A DNA stretch of 51,648 nt from Ignavibacteriota bacterium. GTDB lineage: Bacteria > Bacteroidota > Ignavibacteria > Tepidaquicellales > Tepidaquicellaceae. Both the position numbers and the translations under genes were made by a program. Each line of letters opens with the position of its first letter. The first letter of the stretch is position 1. The notes beneath the pieces are model-generated. The model ran no database searches and was not told the origin of the DNA. It saw only the letters and a program-made list of their open reading frames with translations. The DNA lies in NCBI GenBank assembly GCA_020437545.1, contig JAGQWH010000008.1:1-51648 (forward strand), in the 5' to 3' direction. Below are positions 3-21,142 of the stretch, piece after piece.

Positions 3-1166
3 TACGAACACTTTCCTACAGGCTGGGCTGTTGCATTCTCAACTCCATTCCAGATGTTCAAGCGCTATTCAGAATATTCCGGAGGTACCTGTGACCCGCT
101 GGTGATCAGCTGGCCAAAAGGCATTAAAGCAAAAGGTGAAGTCAGGAACCAGTATCATCATTCAACTGATATAGTCCCGACCATTCTTGATATCTGCGGT
201 CTGGAAATGCCGAAAGTATATAAAGGTGTTGAGCAGTATCCTCTTTCAGGCGTATCAATGCGATATACTTTCGATGCAAAGCCCGATGGAAAAACAAAGA
301 AAGAAGTTCAGTATTATGCAATGCTGGGAACAAGAGCTATCTGGAAAGACGGATGGAAAGCAGTTGCACTACACGTTCCTTTGATCGGAAGAGGTAAATT
401 CGATGAGGATGAATGGGAACTTTATCATGTGGATGAAGACCGTTCCGAATCAAAGAATCTTGCTAAGGAGCATCCGGAAAAGTTGCAGGAATTGATCAAG
501 GTCTGGTTTGATGAAGCTGAGAAGAACATGGTGCTGCCGCTTGACGACCGAAGTGCAATTGAACTTCTCGGGACAGAAAGACCGGCTGAAGAAGCACCGC
601 GTGAAAGATATGTTTATTATCCGGGTACAGCACCAATTCCTGAAGGTGTTGCTGTTAACTGCCGCGGACGTTCATATAAGATACTGGCTGATGTTGAAAT
701 TACGGATCCTGATTGTTCCGGTGTGATCTTTGCACACGGTTCGAGATTCGGAGGACATTCATTGTTCATTAAGGATAAGAAACTTTACTATGTTTACAAT
801 TTCCTTGGTATCAAACCTGAACAGAAATTCATATCCGGTGAGGAATTGAAGCCCGGTAAGTATACATTGGGAATGGAGTTCAATCGAGAAAGCTCAGGAC
901 AGTATCAGGAATCCATAGGCAATACAAAGCTTTACATAAATGAGAAAGTAGTAGCAGAGGGACCTATGAAAACCCAGCCCGGAAAGTTCACTCTTTCAGG
1001 TGATGGTTTATGTATAGGAAATGACAGCGGTGATGCCGTGAGTGAAGAATATAAATCTCCCGGTGAATTCAAAGGCGGGACAATTCTTGGCGTTGGTGTT
1101 TCAGTCGAGAAAATGCAATATCTTGATCTAGAAAAGCTGGCAGCTGCGGCTTTTGCTACGGATTAA
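3..1166 (+). CDS. Arylsulfatase, C-terminal part (cut by window edge)
   Basis: The open frame runs in from the left edge, so the start and the catalytic CxPxR region lie outside the window. The first visible codons (YEHFPTGWAVAFSTPFQMF) align without gaps to the middle of the sulfatase at 13170-15497, and the two stay clearly similar to their last residues, so these are close paralogues. The visible part holds the end of the sulfatase domain (GGTCDPL, SWPKGI, HHSTDIVPTILD) and the C-terminal beta-rich domain (FAHGSRFGGHSLFIKDKKLYY). By homology it hydrolyses sulfate esters; the substrate is unknown. A strong terminator follows at 1200-1258. What is seen is family membership and paralogy; activity is inferred, since the active site is out of view. 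Confidence 0.93.
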   Translation, partial: YEHFPTGWAVAFSTPFQMFKRYSEYSGGTCDPLVISWPKGIKAKGEVRNQYHHSTDIVPTILDICGLEMPKVYKGVEQYPLSGVSMRYTFDAKPDGKTKKEVQYYAMLGTRAIWKDGWKAVALHVPLIGRGKFDEDEWELYHVDEDRSESKNLAKEHPEKLQELIKVWFDEAEKNMVLPLDDRSAIELLGTERPAEEAPRERYVYYPGTAPIPEGVAVNCRGRSYKILADVEITDPDCSGVIFAHGSRFGGHSLFIKDKKLYYVYNFLGIKPEQKFISGEELKPGKYTLGMEFNRESSGQYQESIGNTKLYINEKVVAEGPMKTQPGKFTLSGDGLCIGNDSGDAVSEEYKSPGEFKGGTILGVGVSVEKMQYLDLEKLAAAAFATD

Positions 1167-1199
1167 TGTTTTATAGATATATAATGTAATTGTATAATC

Positions 1200-1258
1200 A
1201 TGTTTGCCTGATTGATAATGTTAAATTTATTTTAAAATCATATCAGGCAAACATTTTT
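1200..1258 (+). terminator. Rho-independent terminator after sulfatase 1
   Basis: A perfect 13-bp stem (ATGTTTGCCTGAT, 1200-1212, with ATCAGGCAAACAT, 1242-1254) is followed by a short T run. It lies 33 bp after the sulfatase stop and separates it from the DUF1622 gene. Confidence 0.85.
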
Positions 1259-1334
1259 AAATTTACACGGTTAATTCTTATAAATTTTACTGACAAGAAT
1301 GTTAACACAATTTTATAAACTTAATATATAAAAA

Positions 1335-1697
1335 ATGGAACTTGATCTGGATAGAGCCATAGAATTTGTAGCTTCGGCAATTGAAGTAATTGCTGTTATT
1401 GTTATTGCGGGATCGATCCTGTTAAGCATATTCAATATTGTTAAAAATTATAGTTCAAGAAAACCCGGATTTTTTAAAAGTTATAAAGACAGGATAGGAA
1501 AGGCATTACAGGCGGGACTCGAGTTTCTGGTTGCAGCTGATATTATCCGTACCGTTATTATAGAACCAACGATTGAGAGCGTTATTATTCTCGGACTTCT
1601 TGTTCTGATCAGGACATTTCTGAGCTGGTCAATAATAGTCGAATCAGAAGAAAGAGTTCCATGGAAGCCGGGGAAAAAAGAAGTTGCGGCAGAGTGA
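1335..1697 (+). CDS. DUF1622-family small membrane protein
   Basis: A 120-residue protein with three predicted membrane helices at about residues 12-36, 59-75 and 80-101, a basic loop between the first two (NYSSRKPGFFKSYKDRIGKALQAGLEF), and a short charged tail. Helix positions and the RIGKALQAGLEFLVAADIIRT-type segment match DUF1622, a family of inner-membrane proteins with no assigned function. It begins after the terminator of sulfatase 1 and faces a minus-strand gene convergently, so it is probably its own transcription unit. No Shine-Dalgarno sequence is evident. No catalytic residue is apparent and I do not assign a role. Confidence 0.8.
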   Translation: MELDLDRAIEFVASAIEVIAVIVIAGSILLSIFNIVKNYSSRKPGFFKSYKDRIGKALQAGLEFLVAADIIRTVIIEPTIESVIILGLLVLIRTFLSWSIIVESEERVPWKPGKKEVAAE

Positions 1698-1943
1698 CTC
1701 AGATACCTCTTTAATTATAAATGAAACTTTTAAGATATTAAAATAGAAGCCGTGCTTTTATGGGTTTATTCTAAAGTTACTGCTTAACGATAAATTTGAT
1801 CTGATAAGAATTAGTTGGTTTAAATATGCTTAAGTAAATTTTTTGAACACTGACAACCCCGGAATAACTTTAAACAGATGAATTGTGGAAAAAGGTATTC
1901 TAAGATATAATTTAAAACGTAAATACAAAACATCTGAGCCACA

Positions 1944-3368
1944 CTAACTTTTCGCTTCATTTATTTTCTCACTAAGCCACTTTCTCCAGAATAATTCTTC
2001 TGCTCTTGAATATTCATGTTCAAGATCATCCAGTATTTTTTTTCTGCCCGTTTCTTTATATCTGATAAGACCATTTAAGATCTTCAGAAAATTTTCAGAA
2101 CCTTTTTTATGAGATTCAGGAAATCCCGAATTTCTGTTCAGATAATCATGAAATCTCTTTTTTATTTTCAGACATTCCAGAATATTTCCGGAATCGTAAT
2201 AAGCAAAGATCTGAACAGTGTAATAATCAAGATCATGAATATAATATACTCTTTTCAATTTTGTTATAAATTTTACTGCATCTTTGTAATTCTTTCTTTT
2301 TAAATTCAGAAATGCAAATGCCGTATTCAGATTATTTTCACGGAGTTCTTCCGGCAGTATTTGTGAATATTCAATTATAAACTCCTCCGCCCATTTATCT
2401 TCATTCAGATTTAAAGCAATATAGACATAATCCCGGAAATGATTTCCTCCTATTTTCGAATTTTTAAGGTCATCCGTCAATCCGCTGTCTAATTTTGATT
2501 TAAGGATCATGAATATTTCACCGTCCAGATTTTTTTTTGTCTTTTGAGCAATTAATGTACAAACATTTAACAGACTATGATACATTTCATTTTTATAATA
2601 ATCCGAAAATAAATCTTTATTTTTAATAAATACCTTCCTTGCTTCTTTGAAATCAGTTATATCCTGAAGTGAATTAACTGCCGAATATAATTTAAACAGA
2701 ATTTCAAATATGACACTGTATTCAGGATAGATACTGTCGACAGTTTTCAGAACTTTGTGAAATTCATATTTCGAAAAAAACTCTTCTTTTATAATAACTG
2801 TATTATCGTTGTAAAACTCCATTCTTATCTTTTTTTCAATCAGTTCTGATATAAGTTCAAAGTAAAAATTCATGAAATTAAAATCTGAATATGTTTTATA
2901 CATTTCTGAAAATTCCTTTGACATGCCTGCCCTTGACAATGCAGGTAAGCATTCAAATGCTGACCTCTGTATTTCATTTAATGTCCGGTAATTAAATTCT
3001 GAGGACTTCAATTTTTTAATATTATTTTTATGATCACTTACCAAAAGCCTTGTAAGATCTCTTTTCCTGAACTGATTCCTTTTTAATCTATGTGCTTCTG
3101 CTTCCTCAGTCATGATCTCTTTAAGTGATAAAAACTGCTCCAGTGAACCTGTGAGCTCCGAGTATATATTCCAGAGACTTCTTTCAGTATATTTTTTTAA
3201 AAAGTAAGCGTGCAGATCTGTTCCTGATTCAATCTTATCAATTATGATCTCAGATAATCTGGTTTTTTTGATAAATGATAGTCTAAGAAATTCACAGAAT
3301 TCTTTTCTTTCTGAATCTGAAAGAGTTCCAAAAACTTTATAAAACTTATTACTATATCCGGAATTCAT
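1944..3368 (-). CDS. All-helical protein of unknown function (paralogue A)
   Basis: A 474-residue protein rich in Lys, Glu, Leu, Phe and Tyr, with no signal peptide, membrane helix or recognisable catalytic motif. It appears to be almost entirely alpha-helical, as in TPR-like or other helical-repeat scaffolds. Its N-terminus (FYKVFGTLSDSERKEFCEFL) resembles that of the 494-residue protein at 11399-12883 (FIKILKTFSRNEMNEFEKFL), and the two share overall length and composition, so they are distant paralogues. Each is transcribed away from a plus-strand unit associated with a sulfatase; here the divergent partner is the lipoprotein at 3584. Function is unknown; a scaffold or regulatory role would be a guess. 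Confidence 0.8.
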   Translation of the reverse strand: MNSGYSNKFYKVFGTLSDSERKEFCEFLRLSFIKKTRLSEIIIDKIESGTDLHAYFLKKYTERSLWNIYSELTGSLEQFLSLKEIMTEEAEAHRLKRNQFRKRDLTRLLVSDHKNNIKKLKSSEFNYRTLNEIQRSAFECLPALSRAGMSKEFSEMYKTYSDFNFMNFYFELISELIEKKIRMEFYNDNTVIIKEEFFSKYEFHKVLKTVDSIYPEYSVIFEILFKLYSAVNSLQDITDFKEARKVFIKNKDLFSDYYKNEMYHSLLNVCTLIAQKTKKNLDGEIFMILKSKLDSGLTDDLKNSKIGGNHFRDYVYIALNLNEDKWAEEFIIEYSQILPEELRENNLNTAFAFLNLKRKNYKDAVKFITKLKRVYYIHDLDYYTVQIFAYYDSGNILECLKIKKRFHDYLNRNSGFPESHKKGSENFLKILNGLIRYKETGRKKILDDLEHEYSRAEELFWRKWLSEKINEAKS

Positions 3369-3583
3369 TTGACTGGTAAGTTTATTTACAATAAATGCAA
3401 TTTACTCCCATAATCAATTAAAATCTATTTATTTACTATGGTAAGTTTGCTTTTAACTGCGTTTTGAAATTGATTTGATTTTAAATAATTTAACCATTCA
3501 AAAATATAAATATTAACAAAACATTTATTTTATTTCTTAAATATTAGAAGCATTTAAATATTCATAAATCAAAACTAAAACAT

Positions 3584-4021
3584 ATGCGAAAAATAATTTC
3601 AGCAGTATCAATTTTCTTTTTAACTCTAGTCTTTTTAGCCGGATGTTCCGGAAGTAAATCTACAACCGGTAAAGTATCACAATCCTCAATGATCAATAGT
3701 TTATCGAAAGAACTCGGGATGACAAAAGATCAGACAGAAGCAGGATTAGGTGCAATGATGATGCTTTCAAAAAATAAGCTTTCACCTGAAGATTTTACCA
3801 AACTCAGCAAAGGTATTCCCGGAGGCAGCAGCAGTTTGATAAATAAAGCCTCTGACCTTGGTGTAGTTCCGGGATCTGTATCTACAACTGCTGACATAAT
3901 AAGTGTACTTACAAAATTAGGAGTAAGTCCTGTTCAGGCAGCTAAATTCACCGGATCGGTTTTGAAATTTGCAGGTGGACTGGGAGGAAGTACATTAGGA
4001 TTGCTCTCAAAAGTTTTTTAA
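3584..4021 (+). CDS. DUF2780-like lipoprotein (paralogue 1)
   Basis: A 145-residue protein with an N-terminal signal peptide and lipobox (FLAGC, lipidated Cys21), so a membrane-anchored lipoprotein. The mature part carries a DUF2780-like pattern: LGMTKDQTEAGLGAMMML, then FTKLSKGIPGG, then LGVSPVQAAKFTGSVL. DUF2780 has no known biochemical function. A paralogue with the same layout lies at 18447-18890. It sits 75 bp ahead of the sulfatase at 4097 on the same strand with no terminator between, so the two are probably co-transcribed. Family assignment is from pattern memory and is fairly confident. Confidence 0.8.
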   Translation: MRKIISAVSIFFLTLVFLAGCSGSKSTTGKVSQSSMINSLSKELGMTKDQTEAGLGAMMMLSKNKLSPEDFTKLSKGIPGGSSSLINKASDLGVVPGSVSTTADIISVLTKLGVSPVQAAKFTGSVLKFAGGLGGSTLGLLSKVF

Positions 4022-4096
4022 TACAATATATTGAGATACATAATCTGCAATAAAAAGAATCAATAAAATTTTTTTAATAATAAAATCAAATTAAAA

Positions 4097-6451
4097 ATGT
4101 CATTAAAAGAATATAAATCTGGACAGACATTTCCCGGAGTAATAGGTAGAACTTATGACCAGTCACAACCTGCCTGGCCGGAGCCTAACCGGGCAAAGGA
4201 AGGTTCGCCGAATGTTTTATTCATTGTACTTGATGACACAGGATTCGGTCATCTCGGCTGCTACGGCAGTCCGATCAAAACACCTAACATAGATAAACTT
4301 GCTGCAAAAGGACTTCTTTTCAGCAATATGCATACAACAGCACTCTGCTCTCCTACAAGATCATGCATCCTTACAGGAAGAAATCATCACTCAAATCATG
4401 TCGGATGTCTTACGAACGGCTCGACCGGGTATCCCGGATACGACGGATATATGCCGTTTGAAAACGGAACCATGGCCGAAATACTTAAAGAGAACGGATA
4501 TAATACTTATTGTATCGGCAAGTGGCATCTTGCGCCGGAAGAAACCATGTCGGCTGCAGGACCTTATGACCGCTGGCCGCTTGGAAGAGGCTTCGAAAGA
4601 TTTTACGGATTTCTCGGCGGAGACACTCATCAGTATTATCCGGAACTTGTAAGAGACAACACTCAAACGGAACCTGAAAAAACTCCTGAGGAGGGATATC
4701 ATTTTACGGAAGATATTGTCGAACAGGCAAAATCAATGATCGCGGATTCAAAGCAGATAGCACCTGATAAACCATTCTATATGTATTTTGCTCCGGGAGC
4801 AATGCATTCCCCTCATCACGTTCCGAAGGAATGGGCTGATAAATACAAAGGCAAATTTGATAAAGGTTGGGACGTGTACAGGAAAGAGACATTTGCAAGA
4901 CAGAAGAAACTCGGTATCATCCCGAAGAATGCAAAACTTTCAAGACATGATCCTGATGTACAGGACTGGGAAAAACTTTCAAAGAAAGAGAAGACTGTCT
5001 TTGCCAGAATGATGGAAGTCTTTGCAGGCTTTCTTGAGCATACGGATCATTACATCGGTGAACTTATTGATTTTCTTAAGCAGATCGGTGAATATGAAAA
5101 TACTCTCATAATGCTGATATCTGACAACGGTTCAAGCGCTGAAGGCGGTCCGACAGGATCTGTGAATGAATGCAGATTCTTCAATAACCTTCCCGATACG
5201 ATCGATGAGATCTATGAGAATCTCGATAAGATCGGGGGACCTGAATGCTTTAATCATTTTCCTTGGGGATGGACTTATGCCGGCAACACACCATTTAAAA
5301 GATGGAAGCGGGAAACATACAGAGGCGGCGTAAGCGATCCTTTCATTATTCACTGGCCTAAAGGAATTAAATCAAAAAATAATGTCCGGACACAATATGC
5401 TCATGCCATCGATATGGTGCCAACTGTACTTGAAGCTGTGGGGATTGAACCTCCTTCGGCAATAAAGGGAATCACTCAGGCTCCAATAGAAGGAGTAAGT
5501 CTGGTAAGCACATTCAATAATGAAAAAGAACCGGATAAGCATGTTACTCAGTATTTTGAAATGCTCGGACATCGTTCACTATATCACGACGGATGGAGAG
5601 CAGTATGTCCCTGGCCCGGAACCTCCTTTTCGGAATCGGGAAGAAAGTTCGGAACACCCGTGGATGATAAAACTCTTACTGCACTCGATACAAAAGGATG
5701 GGAGCTCTATAATTTAAAAGAAGATTTCGCAGAGACAATTAATCTTGCTGCAAAAGAAAGAGACAGACTTATTGCTATGATCGGTATGTGGTATAATGAA
5801 GCAGGCAAGTATAATGTGCTTCCCGTTGACGGACGGGGAACGCAGAGGATTGCCGAGCAAAGACCTCAGATATCCGGTGCCAGGAGCAGGTATGTTCTTT
5901 ATAACGGTACTCAGGCTATACCGGCTAATGCGGCTCCGAAAATTCTTAACAGAAATTATTCCATCACTGCTGATGTAGTAATTCCTAAAAGCGGAGCAGA
6001 AGGTGTATTATTGAGCATGGGCGGAAATGACGGCGGAATTACATTTTATGTGCAGGATGGTAAATTATGTTTTGGACATAATTATGTGACGATAGATTAT
6101 TTCTATGCAAAGTCAGATAAAGATATTCCTGCAGGTAAGCATTTTCTGAGCATGGAATTTACGCCGACAGGAAAAGCTGATCCGAAGAATGGAAAAGGTA
6201 CTCCCGGAAATGTTTCTCTTATGATTGATGGTAAAGTAGTTGGTAAAGCAAAATTCCCTGTAACTACACCGATCAGACTCGGACAGGGAGCGCAAATGCT
6301 TGTAGGTTCTGATTCCGGTTCGTCAGTAATACCGGATTACAAACCGCCGTTTAAATTTACAGGAAAAATAAATAAAGTGATAGTAGATGTCAGCGGAGAG
6401 CATGTGGTTGATCATGAGTCTGAGATGAAAGTTGCATTGATGAAACAATGA
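4097..6451 (+). CDS. Type I arylsulfatase, large form, no signal peptide
   Basis: A 784-residue sulfatase. Metal ligands DD at 46-47, the CSPTR motif with Cys84 and Arg88 (the cysteine is converted to formylglycine in this family), Lys142-x-His144 in GKWH, His237 and His240 in the PGAMHSPHH segment, and Asp343-Asn344 in SDNG are all present, so the active site looks complete. Residues from about 600 form a C-terminal beta-sandwich-like domain, as in other sulfatases of about 780 residues. The N-terminus (MSLKEYKSGQTFPGVIGRTY) is polar and is not a signal peptide, which implies a cytosolic enzyme. It likely shares a transcript with the lipoprotein upstream and ends at the terminator at 6546. 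No formylglycine-generating enzyme is encoded in the window. Substrate unknown. Confidence 0.95.
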   Translation: MSLKEYKSGQTFPGVIGRTYDQSQPAWPEPNRAKEGSPNVLFIVLDDTGFGHLGCYGSPIKTPNIDKLAAKGLLFSNMHTTALCSPTRSCILTGRNHHSNHVGCLTNGSTGYPGYDGYMPFENGTMAEILKENGYNTYCIGKWHLAPEETMSAAGPYDRWPLGRGFERFYGFLGGDTHQYYPELVRDNTQTEPEKTPEEGYHFTEDIVEQAKSMIADSKQIAPDKPFYMYFAPGAMHSPHHVPKEWADKYKGKFDKGWDVYRKETFARQKKLGIIPKNAKLSRHDPDVQDWEKLSKKEKTVFARMMEVFAGFLEHTDHYIGELIDFLKQIGEYENTLIMLISDNGSSAEGGPTGSVNECRFFNNLPDTIDEIYENLDKIGGPECFNHFPWGWTYAGNTPFKRWKRETYRGGVSDPFIIHWPKGIKSKNNVRTQYAHAIDMVPTVLEAVGIEPPSAIKGITQAPIEGVSLVSTFNNEKEPDKHVTQYFEMLGHRSLYHDGWRAVCPWPGTSFSESGRKFGTPVDDKTLTALDTKGWELYNLKEDFAETINLAAKERDRLIAMIGMWYNEAGKYNVLPVDGRGTQRIAEQRPQISGARSRYVLYNGTQAIPANAAPKILNRNYSITADVVIPKSGAEGVLLSMGGNDGGITFYVQDGKLCFGHNYVTIDYFYAKSDKDIPAGKHFLSMEFTPTGKADPKNGKGTPGNVSLMIDGKVVGKAKFPVTTPIRLGQGAQMLVGSDSGSSVIPDYKPPFKFTGKINKVIVDVSGEHVVDHESEMKVALMKQ

Positions 6452-6498
6452 TTTTTGATCTTTGATCTTTGATTTTTGATCTTTGATCTTTCATTTTT
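6450..6498 (+). repeat. Heptamer tract, 7 units (GATCTTT/GATTTTT)
   Basis: Seven consecutive 7-bp units: GATTTTT, GATCTTT, GATCTTT, GATTTTT, GATCTTT, GATCTTT, CATTTTT. The first base is the middle base of the TGA stop codon of the sulfatase, so the tract starts on the stop codon. Confidence 0.9.
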
Positions 6499-6545
6499 GA
6501 TTTGAATGAAAAAAATTCCTGACAATAGATTTTTATTTATGTATT

Positions 6546-6618
6546 GTCTGTCTGCTTTTTCGCGGGTTTCATGATTATTCCCGCCTATGAATATTCAAAA
6601 AAGCAGACAGACTTTTTT
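6546..6618 (+). terminator. Strong terminator after sulfatase 2
   Basis: An outer stem of 15 bp (GTCTGTCTGCTTTTT, 6546-6560, with AAAAAGCAGACAGAC, 6598-6612) and an inner GCGGG/CCCGC stem (6562-6566 with 6580-6584) are followed by six T. It closes the lipoprotein-sulfatase unit. Confidence 0.9.
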
Positions 6619-6666
6619 AAAAAAAATATATAGTTAATGATACAATAAATTAAAATATTTTTAACT

Positions 6667-6996
6667 ATGAAATAAAATTTTTAATAGTTTTTCTTTTTTA
6701 CTTGCTCAGCAGTTTTTCTCTTTCACAGGCAGTGAAACAAGAGAGGATATAAACTTCATGCTTATTCAGCTGATATGCATAAGATATTTGAAGGCTGATA
6801 CTTTATGCAGTTTTCTCCGATCATGAAATTCGACTGGGAAAAACAAAAGTATAATATACCATTAAGATTTGCATTCGGGAAAGCATTCGCTAAGAATCTT
6901 TCAATGTTTGCAGCGAGAGAATACGTGGTCAGCGGTCCGGGTTAAAATGATTTCACAATAAGAATAAATGTTAATGCCATGTTTGCAGCTCTTTAA
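6667..6996 (+). pseudogene. Remnant of an outer-membrane channel-like protein
   Basis: Two coding fragments survive. The first, in a shifted frame, reads like a signal peptide and mature N-terminus (SFLLAQQFFSFTGSETRED). The second, from about 6790, reads YFMQFSPIMKFDWEKQKYNI, then PLRFAFGKAFAKNLSMFAAR, and ends NDFTIRINVNAMF. It resembles the last strands of transporter-like barrels, where a Pro-Leu-Gly-Gly-like strand is followed by a final amphipathic strand. Stops interrupt it (TGA near 6798, TAA at 6943-6945) and the middle of the gene is missing. It is therefore an internally deleted pseudogene lying just before an intact outer-membrane protein gene. The identification rests on short similarity. 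Confidence 0.6.
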
Positions 6997-7014
6997 ACTT
7001 TAAATAAAATAAAT

Positions 7015-7968
7015 TTGAATAAATTTTTAATTGTATTTGCAGTTACATTAATACTTATGTGTTATTCTGTGAATGATCTTCATGCACAGGGTGACGGACC
7101 CCGTGCATTTATGCTTGCCCCAAAAGGGGTATTTGGTTTAAATCCAAAATGGATAAATCTGAATCAGAATTTTCTTCCGGGCAGCAATATTCTTGTTGAA
7201 ACAGCTGATCTTAATATTAATGTTTTCCCTACAACATTATTTTATACTTTCGGGATAGGAGATCACTATGCTCAGGCAATGTTTATGCTCAATCCCGGAA
7301 ATGCAACCGGAAGCATTACATCGGATCTAAACCTGCCTTATACTAATCTTAATGCAAGTGGATTTTCAGACGGATTTTTCGGATTCAAATTAGGTTTGAT
7401 CGGAGCGCCTGCACTTAATTTATTACAGTTTGCCAAACATAAACCGGATTTTTCATTGATGAGTTATTTCAGACTCTGGTATTCCGGTACATATGACAGC
7501 AGCAATGCACTCAATTTAGGTTCAAACCGTCTGACCTATGAAATGGGACTTCCTATGAGCATTCCAGTATTTAAAAATGCTAAACATCCTTTGTGGATTG
7601 AAGCATATCCTTTTATACAGTTTTACTCTACAAATACTGAACCGTCCTTTATTTCCCGGGCAAATGACTCTTATCAGAAACCGCTCTTCGGACTTGAAAC
7701 TCATTACACATATAACATTACTGATAAATTCTGGGCGGGAATAGATTTACGATATCAATACGGAGGCGCTGTAGAGTTAGACGGTGTGACACAGGATAAT
7801 AAAATTAATGTTTTAGGGGGAGGTTTATCAGCTGGATATCAGTTTCTTAATTTCTTGAGCGGGAGTGCCTCATATGGGAAAATTTTAACAGGGGATAACA
7901 ATGCAAGTTCGGATTTGATCCGATTGAGCTTAATATTTGTTTATGCCAATACGAAAAATTTAAAATGA
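7015..7968 (+). CDS. Outer-membrane channel-like beta-barrel (phenol-degradation-channel type)
   Basis: A 317-residue protein starting at TTG, chosen because it gives a full signal peptide (cleavage near LHA-Q, residue 24); the next Met would destroy it. The mature protein begins GDGPRAFMLAPKG and continues with alternating amphipathic strands (NPKWINLNQNFLPG, LVETADLNINVFPTTLFYTF), ending in a Phe/Tyr-rich last strand. This is the layout of the Phenol_MetA_deg-like outer-membrane family, proposed to pass hydrophobic or aromatic solutes. It lies between two sulfatase genes on the same strand, 71 bp ahead of the second, so a channel for their substrate is plausible but not shown. Confidence 0.8.
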   Translation: MNKFLIVFAVTLILMCYSVNDLHAQGDGPRAFMLAPKGVFGLNPKWINLNQNFLPGSNILVETADLNINVFPTTLFYTFGIGDHYAQAMFMLNPGNATGSITSDLNLPYTNLNASGFSDGFFGFKLGLIGAPALNLLQFAKHKPDFSLMSYFRLWYSGTYDSSNALNLGSNRLTYEMGLPMSIPVFKNAKHPLWIEAYPFIQFYSTNTEPSFISRANDSYQKPLFGLETHYTYNITDKFWAGIDLRYQYGGAVELDGVTQDNKINVLGGGLSAGYQFLNFLSGSASYGKILTGDNNASSDLIRLSLIFVYANTKNLK

Positions 7969-8039
7969 AAAATTATCCTTGAGACCCATGAAGGAATAAT
8001 GAATGAATTAAAAATTATTTAAAATCCTAAAAATAAAAA

Positions 8040-10361
8040 ATGAGAAATTCAAAAAGTAAAATTAAAACGGGAACTAAGAATTCAGGAAAAGTGCTTCCAT
8101 TCCAGCCTGTACCTACAGCGAGTATCGCAGGACCGACCTTAGCAAAAAGCAAACATGTAAGAAGACCGCAGCCGGATTATCTGCCTGAAGATGCTCCGAA
8201 TGTACTTATCATATTAATGGATGATGTGGGTTTCGGACAGACGGATACATTTGGAGGGGAAGTACATACTCCCGCTTTGACAAAACTCAGGAATGAAGGT
8301 ATTGCATATAATACATTCCATACAACTTCTATCTGTTCGCCGACAAGAGCTTCTCTTCTGACGGGACGCAATCATACCCGTGTTCATTCCGGAACTATAG
8401 CCGAGCGCGCTCTGGACTTTGACGGATATACCGGAGTCATTCCTTTTACATCTGCGACAGTAGCTGAAGTACTTAAAGAATACGGATATAAAACAGCAGC
8501 TTTCGGTAAATGGCACAATACTCCTGCAGATCAGACCACTTCAATGGGACCGTTTGACCGCTGGCCGACTGGTCATGGGTTTGATCATTTCTACGGATTC
8601 CTTGCCGGTGAGACTTCTCAGTATGAACCAAGACTTGTCGAAAATATTAATCAGATAGAACCTCCGGAAATAGAAGACTATCATCTTTCCGAAGACATTG
8701 CTGATAAAGCTTTGGAGTGGCTAAAAAAGCACAGAGCATTTTCACCTGACAAACCTTTCTTCATGTACTGGGCTCCGGGAGCTTGTCACGGTCCGCATCA
8801 TATTCCTAAGAAATGGGCTGATAAGTATAAAGGTAAATTCAATGACGGCTGGGATAAATACAGAGAAAGAGTTTTCAAAAGACAGAAAGAACTTGGCTGG
8901 ATTCCAAAGGATACAGTATTGACCGAACGTCATGAAACAATGGCTGCATGGGACGACATACCGGAAAATCAGAAAGCTTTTCAAAGAAGACTGATGGAAG
9001 TATTTGCCGGATTCGGGGAACATGCGGATATTCAGGCTGGGAGACTGATAGACGGCATAGAAGAAATGGGATTAAAGGATAATACTTTGATATTTTATAT
9101 CTGGGGTGATAACGGTTCGAGCGCAGAAGGGCAGAACGGATCCATATCAGAATTACTTGCACAGAATCAGATCCCGAATACTATCGAACAGCAATTAGAA
9201 ACTTTAGAAGAACTGGGAGGACTGGATGCTTTGGGTTCATCGAAAACAGACAACATGTATCACGCTTCCTGGGCATGGGCCGGAACTGTCCCTTTCAAAT
9301 ATACAAAACTTATTGCATCGCATTTCGGAGGTACAAGAAATCCAATGGTAGTTTCGTGGCCAAAGAAGATCAGACATGACAAAAAACCGAGAGGACAGTT
9401 TCATCACGTAAATGATATTGCTCCTACTATTTATGATGCTATAGGAATCACTCATCCCGAAGTTGTAAACGGATTCAAGCAGGATCCGCTTGACGGAGTG
9501 AGTATGAAATATACTTTTGACAGTGCTGATGCAAAAGGAAAGAAAGAAACTCAATTCTTTGACAACAATGGCAGCAGGGGAATCTATCATAAAGGCTGGT
9601 TTGCATGTACATTCGGTCCTCTTTATCCATGGCTTAATCACAGTCCGGGGATTGAGACATGGGATTCGGAAAAGGATGTCTGGGAATTGTATGATCTTAC
9701 AAAAGATTTTTCACAGGCAAATGATCTGGCTTCAAAGTATCCTGAGAAAGTGAAAGAGTTAAAAAAAATATTCATGAAAGAGGCAAAGAATAATCTTGAT
9801 CTTCCGATAGGAGCAGGGATATGGACAAGGCTTCATCCGGAGGATGTGCTTACCAGTCCCTACAGAAGCTGGACGTTTGATGATACTACCGTCAGGATGC
9901 CTGAATTTACTGCGCCGGGGATTGGCAAAAAGAGCAACAAAGTAGTGATCGATCTGGAAACCGGAAATAATTCTTCGGGTGTGTTGTATGCACTTGGAGG
10001 CTTCTCAGGTGGTCTGAGTTTATTCATGGATAAAGGTAAACTTATTTATGAATATAATATGATGATGATTGAAAGGTATATTGGCGAAAGTAAATCAAAA
10101 TTATCTAAGGGCAATCACAAGATTGAAGTAGTTACAAAACTTAAAAAAGGACCTGGTTCTGCAGCAGATGTATCAATAAACATCGATGGTAAGAAAGCAT
10201 TTGCAGTTGATGTAAAAAGAACCGTGCCGGGTGCCTTCACTGCAAGCGAATCATTTGATGTAGGTGTTGATCTTGGTTCACCTGTATCTGCAAGATATTT
10301 TGACAGAGCACCGTTTAAGTTTGACGGAAAGATCAAAAATGTAAAAGTAAACCTAATATAG
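8040..10361 (+). CDS. Type I arylsulfatase, no signal peptide
   Basis: A 773-residue sulfatase with metal ligands DD at 61-62, CSPTR with Cys99 and Arg103, the GKWHNTP motif, PGACHGPHH and WGDNGSSAEG, then the same C-terminal beta-rich domain as its paralogues. The catalytic set looks complete. The N-terminus is Lys/Ser-rich (MRNSKSKIKTGTKNSGK) without a hydrophobic core, so it is probably cytosolic. It follows the outer-membrane protein by 71 bp. Unlike the other sulfatases here, it has no strong terminator before the next gene: a BASS-type permease starts 116 bp later. This suggests a transcript joining channel, sulfatase and permease. It is the most divergent of the four in the region before the C-terminal domain. 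Substrate unknown. Confidence 0.95.
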   Translation: MRNSKSKIKTGTKNSGKVLPFQPVPTASIAGPTLAKSKHVRRPQPDYLPEDAPNVLIILMDDVGFGQTDTFGGEVHTPALTKLRNEGIAYNTFHTTSICSPTRASLLTGRNHTRVHSGTIAERALDFDGYTGVIPFTSATVAEVLKEYGYKTAAFGKWHNTPADQTTSMGPFDRWPTGHGFDHFYGFLAGETSQYEPRLVENINQIEPPEIEDYHLSEDIADKALEWLKKHRAFSPDKPFFMYWAPGACHGPHHIPKKWADKYKGKFNDGWDKYRERVFKRQKELGWIPKDTVLTERHETMAAWDDIPENQKAFQRRLMEVFAGFGEHADIQAGRLIDGIEEMGLKDNTLIFYIWGDNGSSAEGQNGSISELLAQNQIPNTIEQQLETLEELGGLDALGSSKTDNMYHASWAWAGTVPFKYTKLIASHFGGTRNPMVVSWPKKIRHDKKPRGQFHHVNDIAPTIYDAIGITHPEVVNGFKQDPLDGVSMKYTFDSADAKGKKETQFFDNNGSRGIYHKGWFACTFGPLYPWLNHSPGIETWDSEKDVWELYDLTKDFSQANDLASKYPEKVKELKKIFMKEAKNNLDLPIGAGIWTRLHPEDVLTSPYRSWTFDDTTVRMPEFTAPGIGKKSNKVVIDLETGNNSSGVLYALGGFSGGLSLFMDKGKLIYEYNMMMIERYIGESKSKLSKGNHKIEVVTKLKKGPGSAADVSINIDGKKAFAVDVKRTVPGAFTASESFDVGVDLGSPVSARYFDRAPFKFDGKIKNVKVNLI

Positions 10362-10395
10362 ATTTTAGAATTTAGATATTAGGTTTTTGATTTGT
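10361..10395 (+). repeat. Degenerate heptamer tract at sulfatase stop
   Basis: Period-7 units GATTTTA, GAATTTA, GATATTA, GGTTTTT, GATTTGT start on the last base of the TAG stop codon. They are imperfect but in phase. Confidence 0.6.
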
Positions 10396-10439
10396 TTTGA
10401 TAAAGTAGTTTTGATTTAATATTATTGAAATTCACCTTT

Positions 10440-10455
10440 ATCCGCCGCGGCGGAT
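10440..10455. repeat. GC-rich palindrome ATCCGCCGCGGCGGAT
   Basis: A perfect 16-bp palindrome in AT-rich surroundings. Related copies occur at 16316-16329 and 46092-46109. With no loop it is a poor terminator; it looks like a dispersed repeat. Confidence 0.75.
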
Positions 10456-10475
10456 TTAACTTTTTACTTTTAACT
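10455..10475 (+). repeat. Short heptamer tract, 3 units
   Basis: TTTAACT, TTTTACT, TTTAACT lie between the palindrome and the TTG start of the permease gene. Confidence 0.6.
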
Positions 10476-10477
10476 CA

Positions 10478-11329
10478 TTGGCAAATATACTTTTAACTGT
10501 CATCGGTATAAGCGCGATACTGGCTATCCCTACTCAGTCTATTGTGCTTGGACTTAAAGCAGGCAGACCATTTTTCAGGGAATTATTTTCTCAGAAACTT
10601 CTTCTGGTAAGATTCATAATTACAATGTTTTTGATCATACCCGGAGTTGCTGTTTTATTTTCATACTTTACCGGAAATCTTATAGCTATATGGAGTGTCG
10701 TACTCATCATTTCGGTAGCTCCTGCATCTCCCGGAGTAATAAAAGGTATGGCAAAACTGGAGGGGAATCAGAATGTCAGCATTGCATGGATGATACTTAC
10801 CATGCTTCTCTCAGTTATATTTTTTCCACTGATAATACTGATACTTCAGGCGTATCTCGGAATAGATCTTAAACTGGGGATAGGGGAAGTTGTGATCAAG
10901 CTAATGATCCTGTTCATTGTTCCGATGGGAATAGGCTTTCTGTTATCAAAATATTTTAAAGATAAAGCCGGGACCTTAGTAAAGATACTTGATCCCGTCT
11001 CGAAAACCGCAATGCTTGCTCTGATTATATCACTTCTCGTCTCTTCGGTTCCTATGATAATCAGTAAGGGTATAATCCCTGTTCTGTTGATACTCGCTTT
11101 TATAATTGTTGCGCTTGTCATTGCGCATTTAATGGGATCTCCTGAGAGGGAATTCGGTCCCATTCTTCCTTTTTCAATTGTACACAGATTACCAGCTCCG
11201 GCTATCATACTTACAAAACTAAATGACACCATGGAAATGCATATGCCTGTGATCATTTCTTATACAATTCTTGCGACAATAGTAATGATCATTTACAATA
11301 AGATATTCTTCGGTAATAAAAATAAGTGA
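10478..11329 (+). CDS. BASS-family (bile acid:sodium symporter-like) permease
   Basis: A 283-residue integral membrane protein with about eight to nine hydrophobic helices, starting at TTG. The segment APASPGVIKGMAKLEGNQNV, followed by a helix with prolines (LLSVIFFPLIILIL), matches the crossover region of SBF/BASS transporters, which carry organic anions, including sulfoconjugated steroids in the animal SLC10A6 member, with sodium. It is shorter than typical 300-330 residue members. It lies directly downstream of a cytosolic-type sulfatase with no terminator between. Import of sulfated anions for that enzyme is therefore an attractive inference. The fold is fairly secure; substrate and direction of transport are not. 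Confidence 0.75.
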   Translation: MANILLTVIGISAILAIPTQSIVLGLKAGRPFFRELFSQKLLLVRFIITMFLIIPGVAVLFSYFTGNLIAIWSVVLIISVAPASPGVIKGMAKLEGNQNVSIAWMILTMLLSVIFFPLIILILQAYLGIDLKLGIGEVVIKLMILFIVPMGIGFLLSKYFKDKAGTLVKILDPVSKTAMLALIISLLVSSVPMIISKGIIPVLLILAFIIVALVIAHLMGSPEREFGPILPFSIVHRLPAPAIILTKLNDTMEMHMPVIISYTILATIVMIIYNKIFFGNKNK

Positions 11330-11398
11330 GTGTTTTGATAATACATATATTGGATTAGCTTGCAGGGATATAAAAACCGGATCTATGTGACCGTAAAA

Positions 11399-12883
11399 TT
11401 ATTTTAACCGTTCCCTGATAACTTTCAACATCCAGTCTTTTTCCCGTGTGTTTACGCTTTTTTCCAGTGAAGAATAATGTCTGAGAAGGCTTTCATTATC
11501 TCTTTTAATAATGCATTGAGATATTTTTTTGTAGTATTTTATAAAATTCAGAAAAGAAGTTTTTAAATTATCCGACAACTTTTTGTTGCCTGATATGAAA
11601 TGCCTCAGACTATCAGCTACATATAAAGAGGAATCTAAATACCCCTGATGAAAAAATATTTTTAACTTCAGTACATAAATATCAATCGAAATAGCGATCG
11701 GTTCATTATTTATTTTCAGAAGATTATTCAGGGATTCATTATAATTTGACCTGTGAAAAAGCAGATTAGCATTTGAAAAATAAATTATATTTGATCCGTA
11801 AATTTCAGTTAATCTTCCGGAATTATTTTTTACGAAATTTTCCGCCCACTCTGCTTCATTATTTTTCAAAGCTGAATTGAGTATCTGCTTGAAATCAAGA
11901 AGTGTTATGTTCATGATTTCACTGGAATTAAAAATGTTTTTGTCTATCAGCAATTTATAGTTTTCAAACAGATCTTTGCTTAGATCAGCTTTTCTGACCT
12001 TTTTGCTGATGATACAGTACACATTCATGTTCTGAATAATATAGTACAGCATTCTCGGTGTCAGTTTTTCGAAATTCTCCTTTATAAGTCTTTTAAGTTT
12101 AGAGTAAGCTGCATATCCATTTTCGGATTTATTCATTTTAAAAGTATTGATCAGCAGTTCCATCATAAGCACAAGTCTTTCATTTTTTAAAGCGGGAAAT
12201 TTTTTAATCTTTTTCATGAATTTTTCAATGCCTGAGATCGTATAGAATCCGAGTATCGGTTCAAGATCCTGATTTATTCTGAATGAGTAGTTGTTAGAGA
12301 TGATCTGATTTATGATAGCGTATGAATTGAACAAAAAATATCCTTCAAGATTAAACAATGCTTTCAGGAGAAAATCATTGTTTGGCTTTTCCGGATTTTT
12401 CACACTTTCGAAATTATGCTGTGTTAAATAAAACCTGTACATCATTAATAAATATTCATCATCAATATTACATTCCGGTAAATGTGTTCTCCAGATTGCA
12501 TTAAGTTTTTTACTGTAAACCTCTTTCAGATCTCTTTTGATAAAATCATTCAAAACATTTATTTCCTTGCTTATCCCTTCGGACCTTTTATGCAAAATAT
12601 TCATATACTCCTCGGCGAGCTTATTCAGTCTTGAAATATATTTTCTGAACAATCTGTCATCATATCTGCTCTTGTTTCCTGCCATTGAAAATAATAATTG
12701 TTTTGTGAGCTTTTCATTGTCAAAGCCGGGATAATATTTTTTCAGCCCGCAAAACAGTTTTACAACTGTAGAATGGTTATTGTAAAAAGGAGATCTGAGG
12801 AATTTTTCAAACTCGTTCATTTCATTTCTTGAAAATGTTTTCAGGATTTTAATGAACGTAAAATGTGAGATGTTCTGATTCAA
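11399..12883 (-). CDS. All-helical protein of unknown function (paralogue B)
   Basis: A 494-residue soluble, strongly helical protein without signal peptide, membrane span or catalytic motif. The N-terminal region (FSRNEMNEFEKFLRSPFYNN, then RLFRKYISRLNKLAEEYM) is the best conserved feature shared with paralogue A at 1944-3368. The rest is Lys/Asn/Leu-rich helix pairs suggestive of a TPR-like scaffold. It is transcribed convergently with the BASS permease and divergently from the sulfatase at 13170. The same arrangement around paralogue A hints at a repeated gene module. No function can be assigned. Confidence 0.8.
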   Translation of the reverse strand: MNQNISHFTFIKILKTFSRNEMNEFEKFLRSPFYNNHSTVVKLFCGLKKYYPGFDNEKLTKQLLFSMAGNKSRYDDRLFRKYISRLNKLAEEYMNILHKRSEGISKEINVLNDFIKRDLKEVYSKKLNAIWRTHLPECNIDDEYLLMMYRFYLTQHNFESVKNPEKPNNDFLLKALFNLEGYFLFNSYAIINQIISNNYSFRINQDLEPILGFYTISGIEKFMKKIKKFPALKNERLVLMMELLINTFKMNKSENGYAAYSKLKRLIKENFEKLTPRMLYYIIQNMNVYCIISKKVRKADLSKDLFENYKLLIDKNIFNSSEIMNITLLDFKQILNSALKNNEAEWAENFVKNNSGRLTEIYGSNIIYFSNANLLFHRSNYNESLNNLLKINNEPIAISIDIYVLKLKIFFHQGYLDSSLYVADSLRHFISGNKKLSDNLKTSFLNFIKYYKKISQCIIKRDNESLLRHYSSLEKSVNTREKDWMLKVIRERLK

Positions 12884-13169
12884 CTTATTTTGATTTGGTT
12901 CACAATTTTAATGTAAAATATCAATTTATGAACGGATTTAGAAGTTAAAAACTGATTAATAGAAGTTTCCGGAATAAATGCAGGTCACAAAATCAGAAAT
13001 CCTTGTATATGTAAATGCATTTAAAAATTTTAAGCACAAGGGTAATTTTATTAAACATCAGAAACATTTCATCTTATCTTATTTCTAATGTAAAGATTAA
13101 TTGTCTGCGTGTTAATCAGAAAACAAAATCACCTCAAAAATAATTTATTAACCTTAAATCTAAGAAATC

Positions 13170-15497
13170 ATGAGCGAGAAAAAATTCAAAGGAGTGATAA
13201 AACTAGATGTCCGCGATTCAAAACCGGACTGGGGACCGTTCACTCTCAAGAGTGCTCCAAAGGGAGCACCCAACGTTTTATTTGTATTGTTTGACGATAC
13301 CGGGATGGCTGCCTGGTCTACTTATGGCGGACGTATCAATATGCCTACGCTTGACAAACTGGCAAAAGGGGGTCTTACTTATACGCAATGGCACACGACT
13401 GCCCTGTGTTCTCCTACGAGATCCACAATCCTTACAGGAAGAAATCATCATCTTAACGGGATGGCCAGTATAACTGAAGGAGCTACCGGATTTCCCGGAG
13501 CCTGCGGAAGAGTGCCTGCAAATTGCGCTTCCATGGCGCAGATACTGCAGGATAACGGATACAGTACATTCTGGATTGGAAAAGATCATAACGTTCCCGA
13601 GCAGGATATTGCAAGCGGAGGAAGCAGATCCGAATGGCCGATGTCAAAAGGATTTGACCGTTTCTACGGATTCCTTGGCGGAGAGACAAATCAATGGTAT
13701 CCTGATCTTGTTGAAGACAGTCGTTTCATTGAACAGCCTTACAGTCCTGAAGAAGGTTACCATCTTTCAAAAGACCTTGCTGATAATGCTATCGAAATGA
13801 TAAAAGATCAGAAATCAGGCAATCCGTCAAAACCCTGGTACATGTGGTTCTGTCCCGGAGCCAACCATGCTCCTCATCAATCCCCTCAGGAGTATATTGA
13901 CAAATATAAAGGAAAGTTTGATGACGGGTATGAAGCATACCGTGAATGGGTTCTGCCGCGTATGATAAAGAAAGGTATTCTTCCTGAAGGAACAAAAATG
14001 ACTCCGTTAAATCCTCTCCCGGAAGATGTTGCCGTTCCCGGGGATATGGTAAGACCATGGGATTCGCTTAATGCAAAAGAGAAGAAATTATTCTCGCGGC
14101 TCGCAGAAGTATATGCAGGATTCAGTGAATATACTGATGCGCAGGTTGGCAGAATTATTGACTATCTTGAAAAGTCAGGACAGCTTGACAATACAATTGT
14201 ATTCTATGCGGCTGACAACGGAGCATCCGGGGAAGGAAGTCCGAACGGATCTGTAAATGAAAATAAATTCTTCAACGGATATCCTGATGATATAGATGAG
14301 AATCTTAAACTAATTAATAAACTCGGAGGTCCTGATACTTATGAACACTACCCGACTGGATGGGCAGCAGCATTCTCAACTCCCTTTCAGATGTTCAAGC
14401 GTTATTCACAGTTCTCCGGAGGTACCTGCGATCCGCTTATAATTCACTGGCCTAAAGTCATAAAGGATAAAGGCGGGATCAGACATCAGTATCATCATTC
14501 CACGGATATAGTTGCAACAATTCTTGATGTGATCGGACTTGAAATGCCGAAAGAATACAGGGGAGTCAAGCAACATCCTTTAAGCGGAATTTCCATGAAA
14601 TATACTTTTGATGCCAAACCTGACGGTAAGACCAGAAAGAAACGTCAGTATTATGAAATGCTCGGTACCAGAGGAATATGGGAAAACGGATGGAAAGCAT
14701 CTGCCGTTCACGCCCCTACAAGCGGAGATGGTCATTTCGATAAGGATAAGTGGGAATTGTATAATGTAGATAAAGACCGTTCCGAATCTACTAACCTTGC
14801 CGATAAACATCCGGAAAAACTGAAAAATCTGATAAAGGTCTGGTTTGATGAAGCGAAGGAAAATAATGTATTGCCTCTTGATGACAGAACAGCCGTTGAA
14901 TTGCTTACTGTCCCGCGTCCGACAGAAGAACCTCCGCGCACCAGTTACATATACTATCCGGATACCTCTCCTGTTCCTGAAGGAGTTGCGGTAAGTATAA
15001 GAGGCAAATCATATAAGATAGTAGCTGATGTAGAAGTTACCAAAGATTCTAAAGGCGTTATTTTTGCTCATGGATCAAGATTCGGCGGACATTCTCTGTT
15101 TATAAAGAATAATAAACTTTATTATGTCTATAATTTCCTTGGCATCAAACCGGAACAGCAGCTGATTTCCGGAATACTGAAACCGGGCAAACGTGTTCTC
15201 GGTGTTGAATTCATCCGGGAAGGAGCCGGGAAATACGGCGAATCTCTCGGAACAGCCAAATTGTATGTAGACAATAAAGTGGTTGCAGAGAAATCCATTC
15301 GAACTCAGATTGGGAAGTTCACGCTTTCAGGTGACGGGCTATGTGTAGGCTATGACAGCGGTGACAATGTCAGTCAGGAATATAAAGCTCCGGCAAAATT
15401 TACAGGAGGCACTATTCTTGGAGTTGGTGTAGATGTAAGCAAAGAATCATATATTGATCTTGAGAAAGATGGCGCTGCCGCTTTTGCAAGAGACTAA
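13170..15497 (+). CDS. Type I arylsulfatase with GKDH variant motif
   Basis: A 775-residue sulfatase, closest to the truncated copy at the left edge. Present are DD at 42-43, CSPTR with Cys80 and Arg84, PGANHAPHQ and ADNGASGEG. The usual GKWH motif reads GKDH (Lys138, His140), keeping the Lys and His ligands but changing the residue between them. The segment before the last metal-proximal Lys reads STPFQMFKR, not NTPFKRWKR. The C-terminal beta-rich domain starts near residue 610. The start Met begins a charged, non-hydrophobic sequence (MSEKKFKGVIKLDVRDSK), so no export signal is seen. An alternative reading frame opening at 13109 overlaps the first codons and is not coding. It ends at its own terminator at 15515. 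Confidence 0.95.
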   Translation: MSEKKFKGVIKLDVRDSKPDWGPFTLKSAPKGAPNVLFVLFDDTGMAAWSTYGGRINMPTLDKLAKGGLTYTQWHTTALCSPTRSTILTGRNHHLNGMASITEGATGFPGACGRVPANCASMAQILQDNGYSTFWIGKDHNVPEQDIASGGSRSEWPMSKGFDRFYGFLGGETNQWYPDLVEDSRFIEQPYSPEEGYHLSKDLADNAIEMIKDQKSGNPSKPWYMWFCPGANHAPHQSPQEYIDKYKGKFDDGYEAYREWVLPRMIKKGILPEGTKMTPLNPLPEDVAVPGDMVRPWDSLNAKEKKLFSRLAEVYAGFSEYTDAQVGRIIDYLEKSGQLDNTIVFYAADNGASGEGSPNGSVNENKFFNGYPDDIDENLKLINKLGGPDTYEHYPTGWAAAFSTPFQMFKRYSQFSGGTCDPLIIHWPKVIKDKGGIRHQYHHSTDIVATILDVIGLEMPKEYRGVKQHPLSGISMKYTFDAKPDGKTRKKRQYYEMLGTRGIWENGWKASAVHAPTSGDGHFDKDKWELYNVDKDRSESTNLADKHPEKLKNLIKVWFDEAKENNVLPLDDRTAVELLTVPRPTEEPPRTSYIYYPDTSPVPEGVAVSIRGKSYKIVADVEVTKDSKGVIFAHGSRFGGHSLFIKNNKLYYVYNFLGIKPEQQLISGILKPGKRVLGVEFIREGAGKYGESLGTAKLYVDNKVVAEKSIRTQIGKFTLSGDGLCVGYDSGDNVSQEYKAPAKFTGGTILGVGVDVSKESYIDLEKDGAAAFARD

Positions 15498-15584: not shown

Positions 15585-16170
15585 CTAATTGTAAGCAAAC
15601 GGCCAACTAATATTTCTTGATTGCTCCCATAATCCTTTAAAGGATTCCCTTCTTTTCATTGCTAAGGATAATTTTAAAATAGTTTGATTTCCATCTTTTA
15701 TCATATATGCACCAATTGCCATATATTTAAACCGTATTGTTGAAAGAGTATTTTGAACATCTTGCTGAATTACTGCTTGCCTGAACAGACTCATTAAATT
15801 ATAAGCGATCATTGCAAAGTTTATGCTGGCTTCCGTAGCATGAAAATCTTTCATATTGAAGCTGTCAAAACCAAAATCATACTTTAATTCTTTTATTCTA
15901 TTTTCTGCATCAGCTCTTTGCTTATAAAGATGCCAAACTTGTTCAGCGGGTAAATCTATATTGGTAATTATACAACTATATCTATATTTCATATACCAGC
16001 CTTCTTCTTTAAATAAGCGTAAGAGTTTGCCTGTAGCTTTAGGACGATTTGGAACATACTGACGTGTAATTACTATCCTTCTGGATTTTTCCCACAAAGG
16101 ACTCTTGTACATACTTTCGGCAATTTCTATTCCCTCACCCAATTGAAGCCATATTTTCCTGTTTTCAGAG
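15585..16170 (-). pseudogene. IS1380-type transposase remnant (C-terminal part)
   Basis: The reading frame encodes 185 residues from its first Met, and similarity appears to continue a few codons upstream (SENRKIWLQLGEGIEIAESM). The segment RADAENRIKELKYDFGFDSF, followed by the residues ATEASINFAMIAYNLMSLFR, is the hallmark C-terminal part of IS1380-family DDE transposases, including the last acidic catalytic residue. Intact members exceed 400 residues, so the N-terminal half with the first two catalytic acids is gone. No clear terminal inverted repeats bound it. It lies in a decayed stretch between the sulfatase island and a pseudogenised channel. It is not expected to be active. Confidence 0.85.
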
Positions 16171-16307: not shown

Positions 16308-16315
16308 CAAAGAAA

Positions 16316-16329
16316 TCCGCCACGGCGGA
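16316..16329. repeat. Variant of the TCCGCC..GGCGGA palindrome
   Basis: TCCGCCACGGCGGA has 6-bp arms around AC and is a one-base variant of the palindrome at 10440. It sits between two hairpins. Confidence 0.7.
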
Positions 16330-16347
16330 CACCCGTCCCGAGTACTC

Positions 16348-20361: not shown

Positions 20362-20395
20362 AAATTAATTTTTTAACTAAACATAAAATTAAAGC

Positions 20396-21142
20396 ATGAA
20401 AAAAATCAATAAATTTCGGTTTTTATTTATAGTTATTGTTTTTTTATTTCAGAGCTCGAGATCATATTCTCAGTTTGACTCTGCTGCAGTTATGATCCTC
20501 GACAGAATGAGCAACATGATAGCAGGCATGGAGTCTGTAAGTTTTAAAATGAATATTGAGCAGGATAAATTAAGCAGAGGTGCAGGACTTATAAAACACG
20601 GAGTTGAAGCTTCGGTATTTATGAGAGGACCTGATAAGATGCTTGTAGATATAAATGGCGATGACGGGCAAAAAGATTATTTGTATAACGGGAAGACATT
20701 TACTTATTATTCAATGACAAATAATCAATATGCAACTATAGATGCCCCGTCAACCAACATTCAGACCATAGACCTTCTTCATAATGATTACGGTCTGGAT
20801 TTTCCGGCTTCGGACTTTTTCTATCCGAATTTTGTAAATGACTTAATTGCCAATTCAAATAATCTACTTTATCTCGGTATCACTAAAGTAAATGATAAGC
20901 AGTGTTTTCATCTTGCAGGATCCACTTCGGATAAGACTATGACATATCAGTTCTGGATAGCCGACGATGCTTTTTTCCTTCCGGTGAAAATGGCAATCGT
21001 TTATACTGATCAGCCCGGCAATCCTCAGTATCAGGGTTCGATGTATGACTGGGAGATAAATCCGGCACTTCCGGATGCTATGTTTGAATTCAATGTTCCT
21101 CCCGGTGCAAAACAAATTAAATTAAAAAAGAACAGCAATTAG
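20396..21142 (+). CDS. DUF2092-like exported protein
   Basis: A 248-residue protein with a signal peptide ending near SYSQ (residue 26). The mature part carries the DUF2092 pattern: an early helix ILDRMSNMIAGMESVSFKMN, followed by VFMRGPDKMLVDINGD, YLYNGKTFTYYSM, a long middle section and WEINPALPDAMFEFNVPPGA near the end. The fold probably resembles the LolA/LolB-type half-barrel in which such proteins bind lipid or hydrophobic ligands; that is inference from the fold family. It lies 34 bp after the Omp85-like gene and 33 bp before the Gly/Asn-rich protein, in a likely envelope operon. Confidence 0.78.
   Translation: MKKINKFRFLFIVIVFLFQSSRSYSQFDSAAVMILDRMSNMIAGMESVSFKMNIEQDKLSRGAGLIKHGVEASVFMRGPDKMLVDINGDDGQKDYLYNGKTFTYYSMTNNQYATIDAPSTNIQTIDLLHNDYGLDFPASDFFYPNFVNDLIANSNNLLYLGITKVNDKQCFHLAGSTSDKTMTYQFWIADDAFFLPVKMAIVYTDQPGNPQYQGSMYDWEINPALPDAMFEFNVPPGAKQIKLKKNSN

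Follow-up and report, generated by a model that had tools for sequence, protein, structure and literature searches.

In soil and in the sea, sulfate esters make up a major pool of sulfur. To our knowledge, little is known, apart from the ABC systems of Pseudomonas, about transporters for organic esters of this kind. In P. aeruginosa, the arylsulfatase PAS (AtsA) is presumably paired with ABC transporter genes, and not with a BASS permease and a COG4313 outer-membrane channel. This 536-residue, Cys-type enzyme corresponds to SulfAtlas subfamily S1_4 (PMC5066984), a number assigned to PAS and not to the proteins described here, and its gene is induced by sulfur starvation (PMC12581299). In mammals, SOAT (SLC10A6), a transporter of the BASS/SLC10 fold, imports sulfated steroids ahead of an intracellular steroid sulfatase, in the so-called 'sulfatase pathway' (PMC10298714). 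At the outer membrane, channels of the COG4313/PF13557 family (Pput2725, SphA, TcpY) are thought to take up hydrophobic molecules. Hydrophilic solutes hardly pass the solved member, Pput2725, in vitro, and in the same paper none of these channels is described with sulfatases (PMC4493636).

Here, we describe a locus from an Ignavibacteriota bacterium where members of these families are found side by side. The window, i.e. the whole stretch of 51,648 nucleotides that was analysed, is a single contig, C418, within a draft genome (G000) of 4.29 Mb that comes in 429 contigs. According to the original prediction, small organic sulfate esters would be taken up and then desulfated in the cytosol, by a set of proteins for which no exact described counterpart was known. 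In the open-access literature, to which the search was confined (most subscription journals lying outside), no described sulfatase-BASS system was found, in line with this claim. The individual pieces are known; it is their combination and its spread that appear new.

Gene organization at the left end of the window

In the list of open reading frames, the first 15.5 kb carry S0, S1, the outer-membrane channel, S2, the BASS-fold permease and S3 on the forward strand, with two reverse-strand genes between them. The four large type I sulfatases announced in about 15 kb are indeed there: S0-S3 all match PF00884, and coordinates and gene kinds agree. Likewise, S2 is preceded by the predicted barrel (PF13557) and followed by the permease (PF01758), with Pfam and PDB searches in agreement. 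S1 (positions 4097-6451; 784 residues; PF00884, 9e-67), S2 (8040-10361; 773 residues; 3e-59) and S3 (13170-15497; 775 residues; 2.5e-62) are complete. S0 (3-1166) resembles S3 and is truncated at the edge of the contig. Its C-terminal 387 residues (PF00884/SGSH_C) remain and are 72% identical to residues 391-775 of S3. The right end of another contig (G000:C66:38463-39383) matches residues 1-307 of S3 with 81% identity, which leaves a gap of about 83 codons to the S0 fragment. The N-terminal part of S0 is probably located there, the two contigs being tentatively joined on the basis of their sequences; no signal peptide was seen in this piece by hydrophobicity scan.

The two reverse-strand genes, at 1944-3368 (474 residues) and 11399-12883 (494 residues, divergent from S3), code for members of one family without any match in the Pfam search. 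This family is a recurrent neighbour of sulfatases and is often divergently transcribed. A second PF01758 protein of the window (33095-34165) was also considered as a part of the system and was rejected, being an ACR3 arsenite permease.

S1 and the channel are set apart by a strong terminator hairpin on the forward strand (6546-6612; stem of -29.5 kcal/mol, then a T run). Between S2 and the permease, where the original prediction saw no terminator, the palindrome ATCCGCCGCGGCGGAT (10440-10455, no strand assigned) forms a weak terminator-like hairpin of 6 GC base pairs followed by T-rich sequence, although it may be a dispersed repeat rather than a terminator. Because of the hairpins in these two gaps, the reading of the locus as a single operon is not supported.

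The sulfatases, their location and their maturation

The C-x-P-x-R motif and the metal ligands reported at the outset in the three complete sulfatases are confirmed by alignment. Ten catalytic or metal-binding residues (D13, D14, C51, R55, K113, H115, H211, D317, N318 and K375 in PAS numbering) are intact and invariant in S1-S3 and in five relatives. The top PDB matches of S1 and S2 include PAS (1hdh), its mutants, and 7all. PAS, the closest solved structure, shares the active site and the Cys type of the window enzymes but is devoid of their extra C-terminal domain of about 200 residues. As judged from sequence, S1-S3 are thus type I (formylglycine) sulfatases, S1_4-like and predicted to be active.

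The N-termini were examined with our own hydrophobicity scan, not with SignalP. S1-S3 scored negative and exported controls positive, in a test where the cytosolic control NadB also scored high. A missed upstream start with a signal peptide was considered and rejected, as the in-frame room before S1, S2 and S3 amounts to 10, 1 and 2 codons, respectively. Scan and upstream frames therefore bear out the absence of signal peptides that had been proposed, and S1, S2 and S3 are predicted to be cytosolic. Among the other sulfatases of the genome examined with the same scan, those on contigs C66, C133, C54 and C144 are without signal too; a signal, of the lipoprotein type, was seen for the C107 enzyme alone. 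The premise that a cytosolic location is unusual was, on the other hand, too strong. Cys-type sulfatases are described in a review as typically cytosolic (PMC3920027), so that location alone is not surprising.

Named relatives were collected by a scan of GTDB genomes, and a tree of 103 sulfatases was built. The S2 clade has 11 members. Seven of the eight from outside the family of the window carry a signal peptide, and the N-terminus of the eighth is cut by a contig edge. A clear absence is seen only for the window S2 and its orthologues in two family genomes, G002 (same genus) and G023 (another genus). In the simplest reading of these sequences, S2 has apparently lost its export signal in the lineage where channel and BASS lie beside it. 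Such a move of the enzyme from periplasm to cytosol could be tied to the adjoining transporters. As for the other enzymes, S3 has relatives with and without a signal, namely an exported protein from Cytophagales (75% over 737 columns) and one from Ilumatobacter that lacks it. The S1 clade of this tree contains members of the window's family only. A scan of viral sequences with S2 as query gave no match.

The search for maturation genes elsewhere in the genome, suggested with the original prediction, was successful on both counts. A canonical formylglycine-generating enzyme (FGE), with both catalytic cysteines, the motif LCAPNYCxRYRPAAR and no signal peptide, is encoded at G000:C133:1836-2801. 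An anaerobic sulfatase maturase is found on G000:C87. It is 78% identical to the copy of another family genome, G022, which as a query scores 499 bits against TIGR03942 (cut-off 349). A second FGE-like gene, on C19, was rejected because the cysteine motif is missing.

Permease, channel and their neighbourhood in the family

The permease (10478-11329, forward strand; 283 residues), a candidate sulfate-ester transporter, matches PF01758 with 38.8 bits for a cut-off of 24.3 (1e-9). Its AlphaFold model (pTM 0.77) has TM scores of 0.71-0.76 with the best ASBT_NM and ASBT_Yf structures, and its first 27 fold matches are all ASBT/NTCP proteins (ASBT_NM, ASBT_Yf, NTCP). The canonical Na+ ligands (SN in TM4, E..MQ in TM9, at the positions that we take to be those of ASBT_NM) are replaced by APASPG.. 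and RLPAPA... The coupling ion can therefore not be deduced from these residues, and Na+ coupling is, at the level of sequence, unproven rather than excluded. With the window BASS as query, neither a scan of genome contigs (single-protein query) nor a plasmid search returned any relative. A profile search of 395 genomes of the phylum (E 1e-20) matched the genome of the window only, because the subfamily is narrow.

The channel (7015-7968, forward strand) carries a signal peptide according to the hydrophobicity scan and matches PF13557 above cut-off (4e-8). The best fold match of its model, of low confidence (pLDDT 53), is 4rl8, the COG4313 channel Pput2725. Highly polar sulfates would be unlikely cargo, since Pput2725 hardly passes hydrophilic solutes.

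The adjacency of permease, channel and sulfatase, whose conservation the original prediction proposed to check, recurs in relatives, where the channel adjoins S2, BASS or FGE. The order channel-S2-BASS is kept in G002 (81, 77 and 80% identity). In G023, S1, channel, a DUF502-like gene, S2 and BASS follow each other, with 48, 79 and 36% identity for channel, S2 and BASS. G001 has the C-terminus of S2 and then BASS, G010 has channel and BASS adjacent, G011 shows BASS, FGE, channel and sulfatase in a row on one strand, and in G022 FGE and channel are followed by a SulP sulfate permease. Across the 25 genomes of the family, the sulfatase set is present in nine, and the channel profile (E<1e-60) is found in exactly the same nine. 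BASS occurs in seven of them, being absent from G006 and G013, and in none of the other family genomes. Canonical FGE also occurs in seven of the nine and nowhere else in the family. The anaerobic maturase is found in six at E<1e-150, and G023 has a weaker, half-length match. Hypergeometric p-values for co-occurrence with the sulfatases are 5e-7 (channel) and 7e-5 (BASS), or 1e-4 and 1e-3 when counted by genus, values which ignore shared descent and the incompleteness of drafts (G001 is 67% complete).

Spread beyond the family and possible roles of the locus

BASS next to a sulfatase is also seen outside the family. In 80 sulfatase neighbourhoods, eight BASS-like reading frames were found, seven of which are the next gene downstream of the sulfatase (six cyanobacterial contigs and a proteobacterial one). 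Among annotated plasmids, FGE, arylsulfatase and BASS stand in this order in two Nostoc and in Halorussus, and as arylsulfatase-BASS-FGE in Halobaculum lipolyticum; in Halobaculum limi, sulfatases lie near BASS. Aliphatic sulfonate transporter genes adjoin the cassette of Nostoc sp. UHCC 0302. Sulfatases next to BASS in haloarchaea share 53-54% identity with S1. For the enzymes of Halorussus and H. limi, inspection revealed no signal peptide, the frame extending upstream by 9 codons at most. In haloarchaea, which have no outer membrane, a cytosolic FGE, a cytosolic S1-type sulfatase and BASS are grouped. By contrast, the cyanobacterial cassette sulfatases are exported, and an export signal is likewise present on the FGE examined there (N. 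edaphicum). Haloarchaeal and rhizobial BASS proteins less than about 37% identical to the cyanobacterial one have no sulfatase alongside, nor does that of Haloarcula pelagica (44%). These plasmid cassettes unite three gene families that also adjoin each other in the lineage of the window. They differ by a BASS of another subfamily, by having no outer-membrane channel noted and, in cyanobacteria, by exported sulfatases. The FGE-sulfatase-BASS cassette is a real functional association, where BASS can pair with sulfatases on either side of the membrane.

With confidence that just passes the halfway mark, we take a module of uptake followed by desulfation, for organic and probably lipophilic sulfate esters, as the best reading of the locus. 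In this module, the COG4313 channel would pass a small, probably lipophilic ester across the outer membrane, and the permease would carry the ester anion across the inner membrane. The sulfatase cysteine would be oxidised to formylglycine by the cytosolic FGE (G000:C133) or by the anaerobic maturase (G000:C87). Cytosolic S2 would then remove the sulfate, S0, S1 and S3 perhaps acting likewise on other esters. From the computations, enzymes without export signal, their intact active sites, the maturases, the conserved neighbourhood and the co-occurrence are at hand, and they sustain this part of the original prediction; what we infer is the direction of transport, the class of substrate and a use as sulfur or carbon source. 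Pairing with BASS did not hold as a proof of ester import, because the cyanobacterial partner sulfatases are exported and BASS there cannot supply them with ester. Mainly because BASS has partner enzymes both in the cytosol and beyond the membrane, confidence in ester import stays only moderate. The missing Na+ residues, the hairpin between S2 and BASS, and the two family genomes with sulfatases and no BASS are further points against the module. The SOAT/steroid sulfatase pathway, its parallel in mammals, differs by the absence of a shared gene cluster, by a canonical Na+-dependent transporter and by a membrane-bound sulfatase.

It may also be envisaged, as a serious possibility somewhat short of an even chance, that the locus is a general sulfatase island where every enzyme has a source of its own and permease and channel serve S2 only, the esters of S0, S1 and S3 being made or imported otherwise. 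This can be compatible with the uptake module. The strong terminator between S1 and channel speaks for such a division, as do S1- and S3-type genes without BASS beside them in G010, G011 and G013. It is less easily reconciled with the channel found downstream of S1 in G000, G002 and G023 (and, truncated, in G022), or with the S1-type enzymes that sit with BASS in haloarchaea.

Rather unlikely, in our opinion, is a BASS that deals with the product of desulfation or with some other organic anion, which it would take up in cyanobacteria and export where the sulfatase is cytosolic, the ester entering otherwise. The six cyanobacterial contigs in which BASS comes right after an exported sulfatase would fit, and the fold does carry many organic anions, such as pantoate in ASBT_NM (8oyg). 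Yet opposite directions would be required in different lineages, and an exporter would leave unexplained why BASS is coupled, in the family of the window, with FGE and the outer-membrane channel. That BASS and channel have unrelated roles and became neighbours by chance is very improbable and already disfavoured: both gene types are common in bacteria and operon structure is unproven, but the adjacency recurs in several arrangements and phyla, presence and absence match, and seven of the eight BASS-like frames lie directly downstream of the sulfatase.

To return to the uptake module, a cassette of enzyme, maturase and permease conserved in bacteria and archaea brings forward a bacterial BASS as a direct candidate for sulfate-ester transport, in parallel with SOAT and steroid sulfatase. 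More tentatively, and with odds a little below even, one may imagine a widespread, so far undescribed organosulfate-uptake system. A dedicated BASS subfamily, apparently without canonical Na+ sites, would be inherited together with arylsulfatase and FGE, in cyanobacteria and haloarchaea as well as in Bacteroidota-like bacteria, and the lineage of the window would have gained the channel and a sulfatase that had lost its export signal. Finally, a plasmid of Roseobacter litoralis carries an S2 orthologue (62%) with a PF13557 gene directly upstream.

Compartments of sulfatases and maturation enzymes

In two genomes, a lipoprotein formylglycine-generating enzyme (FGE) is encoded next to a lipoprotein sulfatase, namely in the relative G023 (C99:1626-5376, locus L210) and on contig C107 of the window's own genome, G000. 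Because of this adjacency, the data suggest that sulfatase/FGE pairs are matched by compartment, one pair being cytosolic and the other exported.

Recurrent neighbours and permeases

DUF1254/DUF1214 proteins are recurrent neighbours of these sulfatases and occur in 13 of 80 named sulfatase loci; in the relative G002, their genes bracket the FGE gene on both sides (C244:202-1626 and 3005-4414). A protein family of about 480-500 residues, without Pfam assignment, is also repeatedly found within a few kb of sulfatases, in a sample of loci that were mostly picked for their sulfatases. Two members are encoded on the minus strand of the window (1944-3368 and 11399-12883), and others on contigs C66, C107, C54 and C25 of G000 and in relatives. 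Their genes are mostly divergent from a sulfatase gene. It is possible that this family is a regulator.

In relatives, SulP sulfate permease genes adjoin FGE-channel or sulfatase genes (G022:C21, L200:9561-11252; G001:C157, L212:48-1688; L131:2936-4636). Perhaps these permeases move the released sulfate. The window gene at 33095-34165 was rejected as part of the sulfatase system: it encodes an ACR3 family arsenite efflux permease, unrelated to the BASS permease though of the same Pfam family.

Remnants, interrupted genes and repeats

An IS1380 transposase fragment (15585-16142) adjoins the sulfatase gene S3. At about 6700-6780 lies the leftover of a 270-residue exported protein, the gene of which is intact in G002, between S1 and the channel gene. 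Two G002 sulfatase genes (C244:44382-46625 and 19412-21667) each contain one in-frame stop, and would be either pseudogenes or assembly errors. Finally, the near-perfect palindrome ATCCGCCGCGGCGGAT, present in three copies in the window (10440-10455, 16315-16330 and 46093-46108) versus 0.04 expected, looks like a dispersed repeat.
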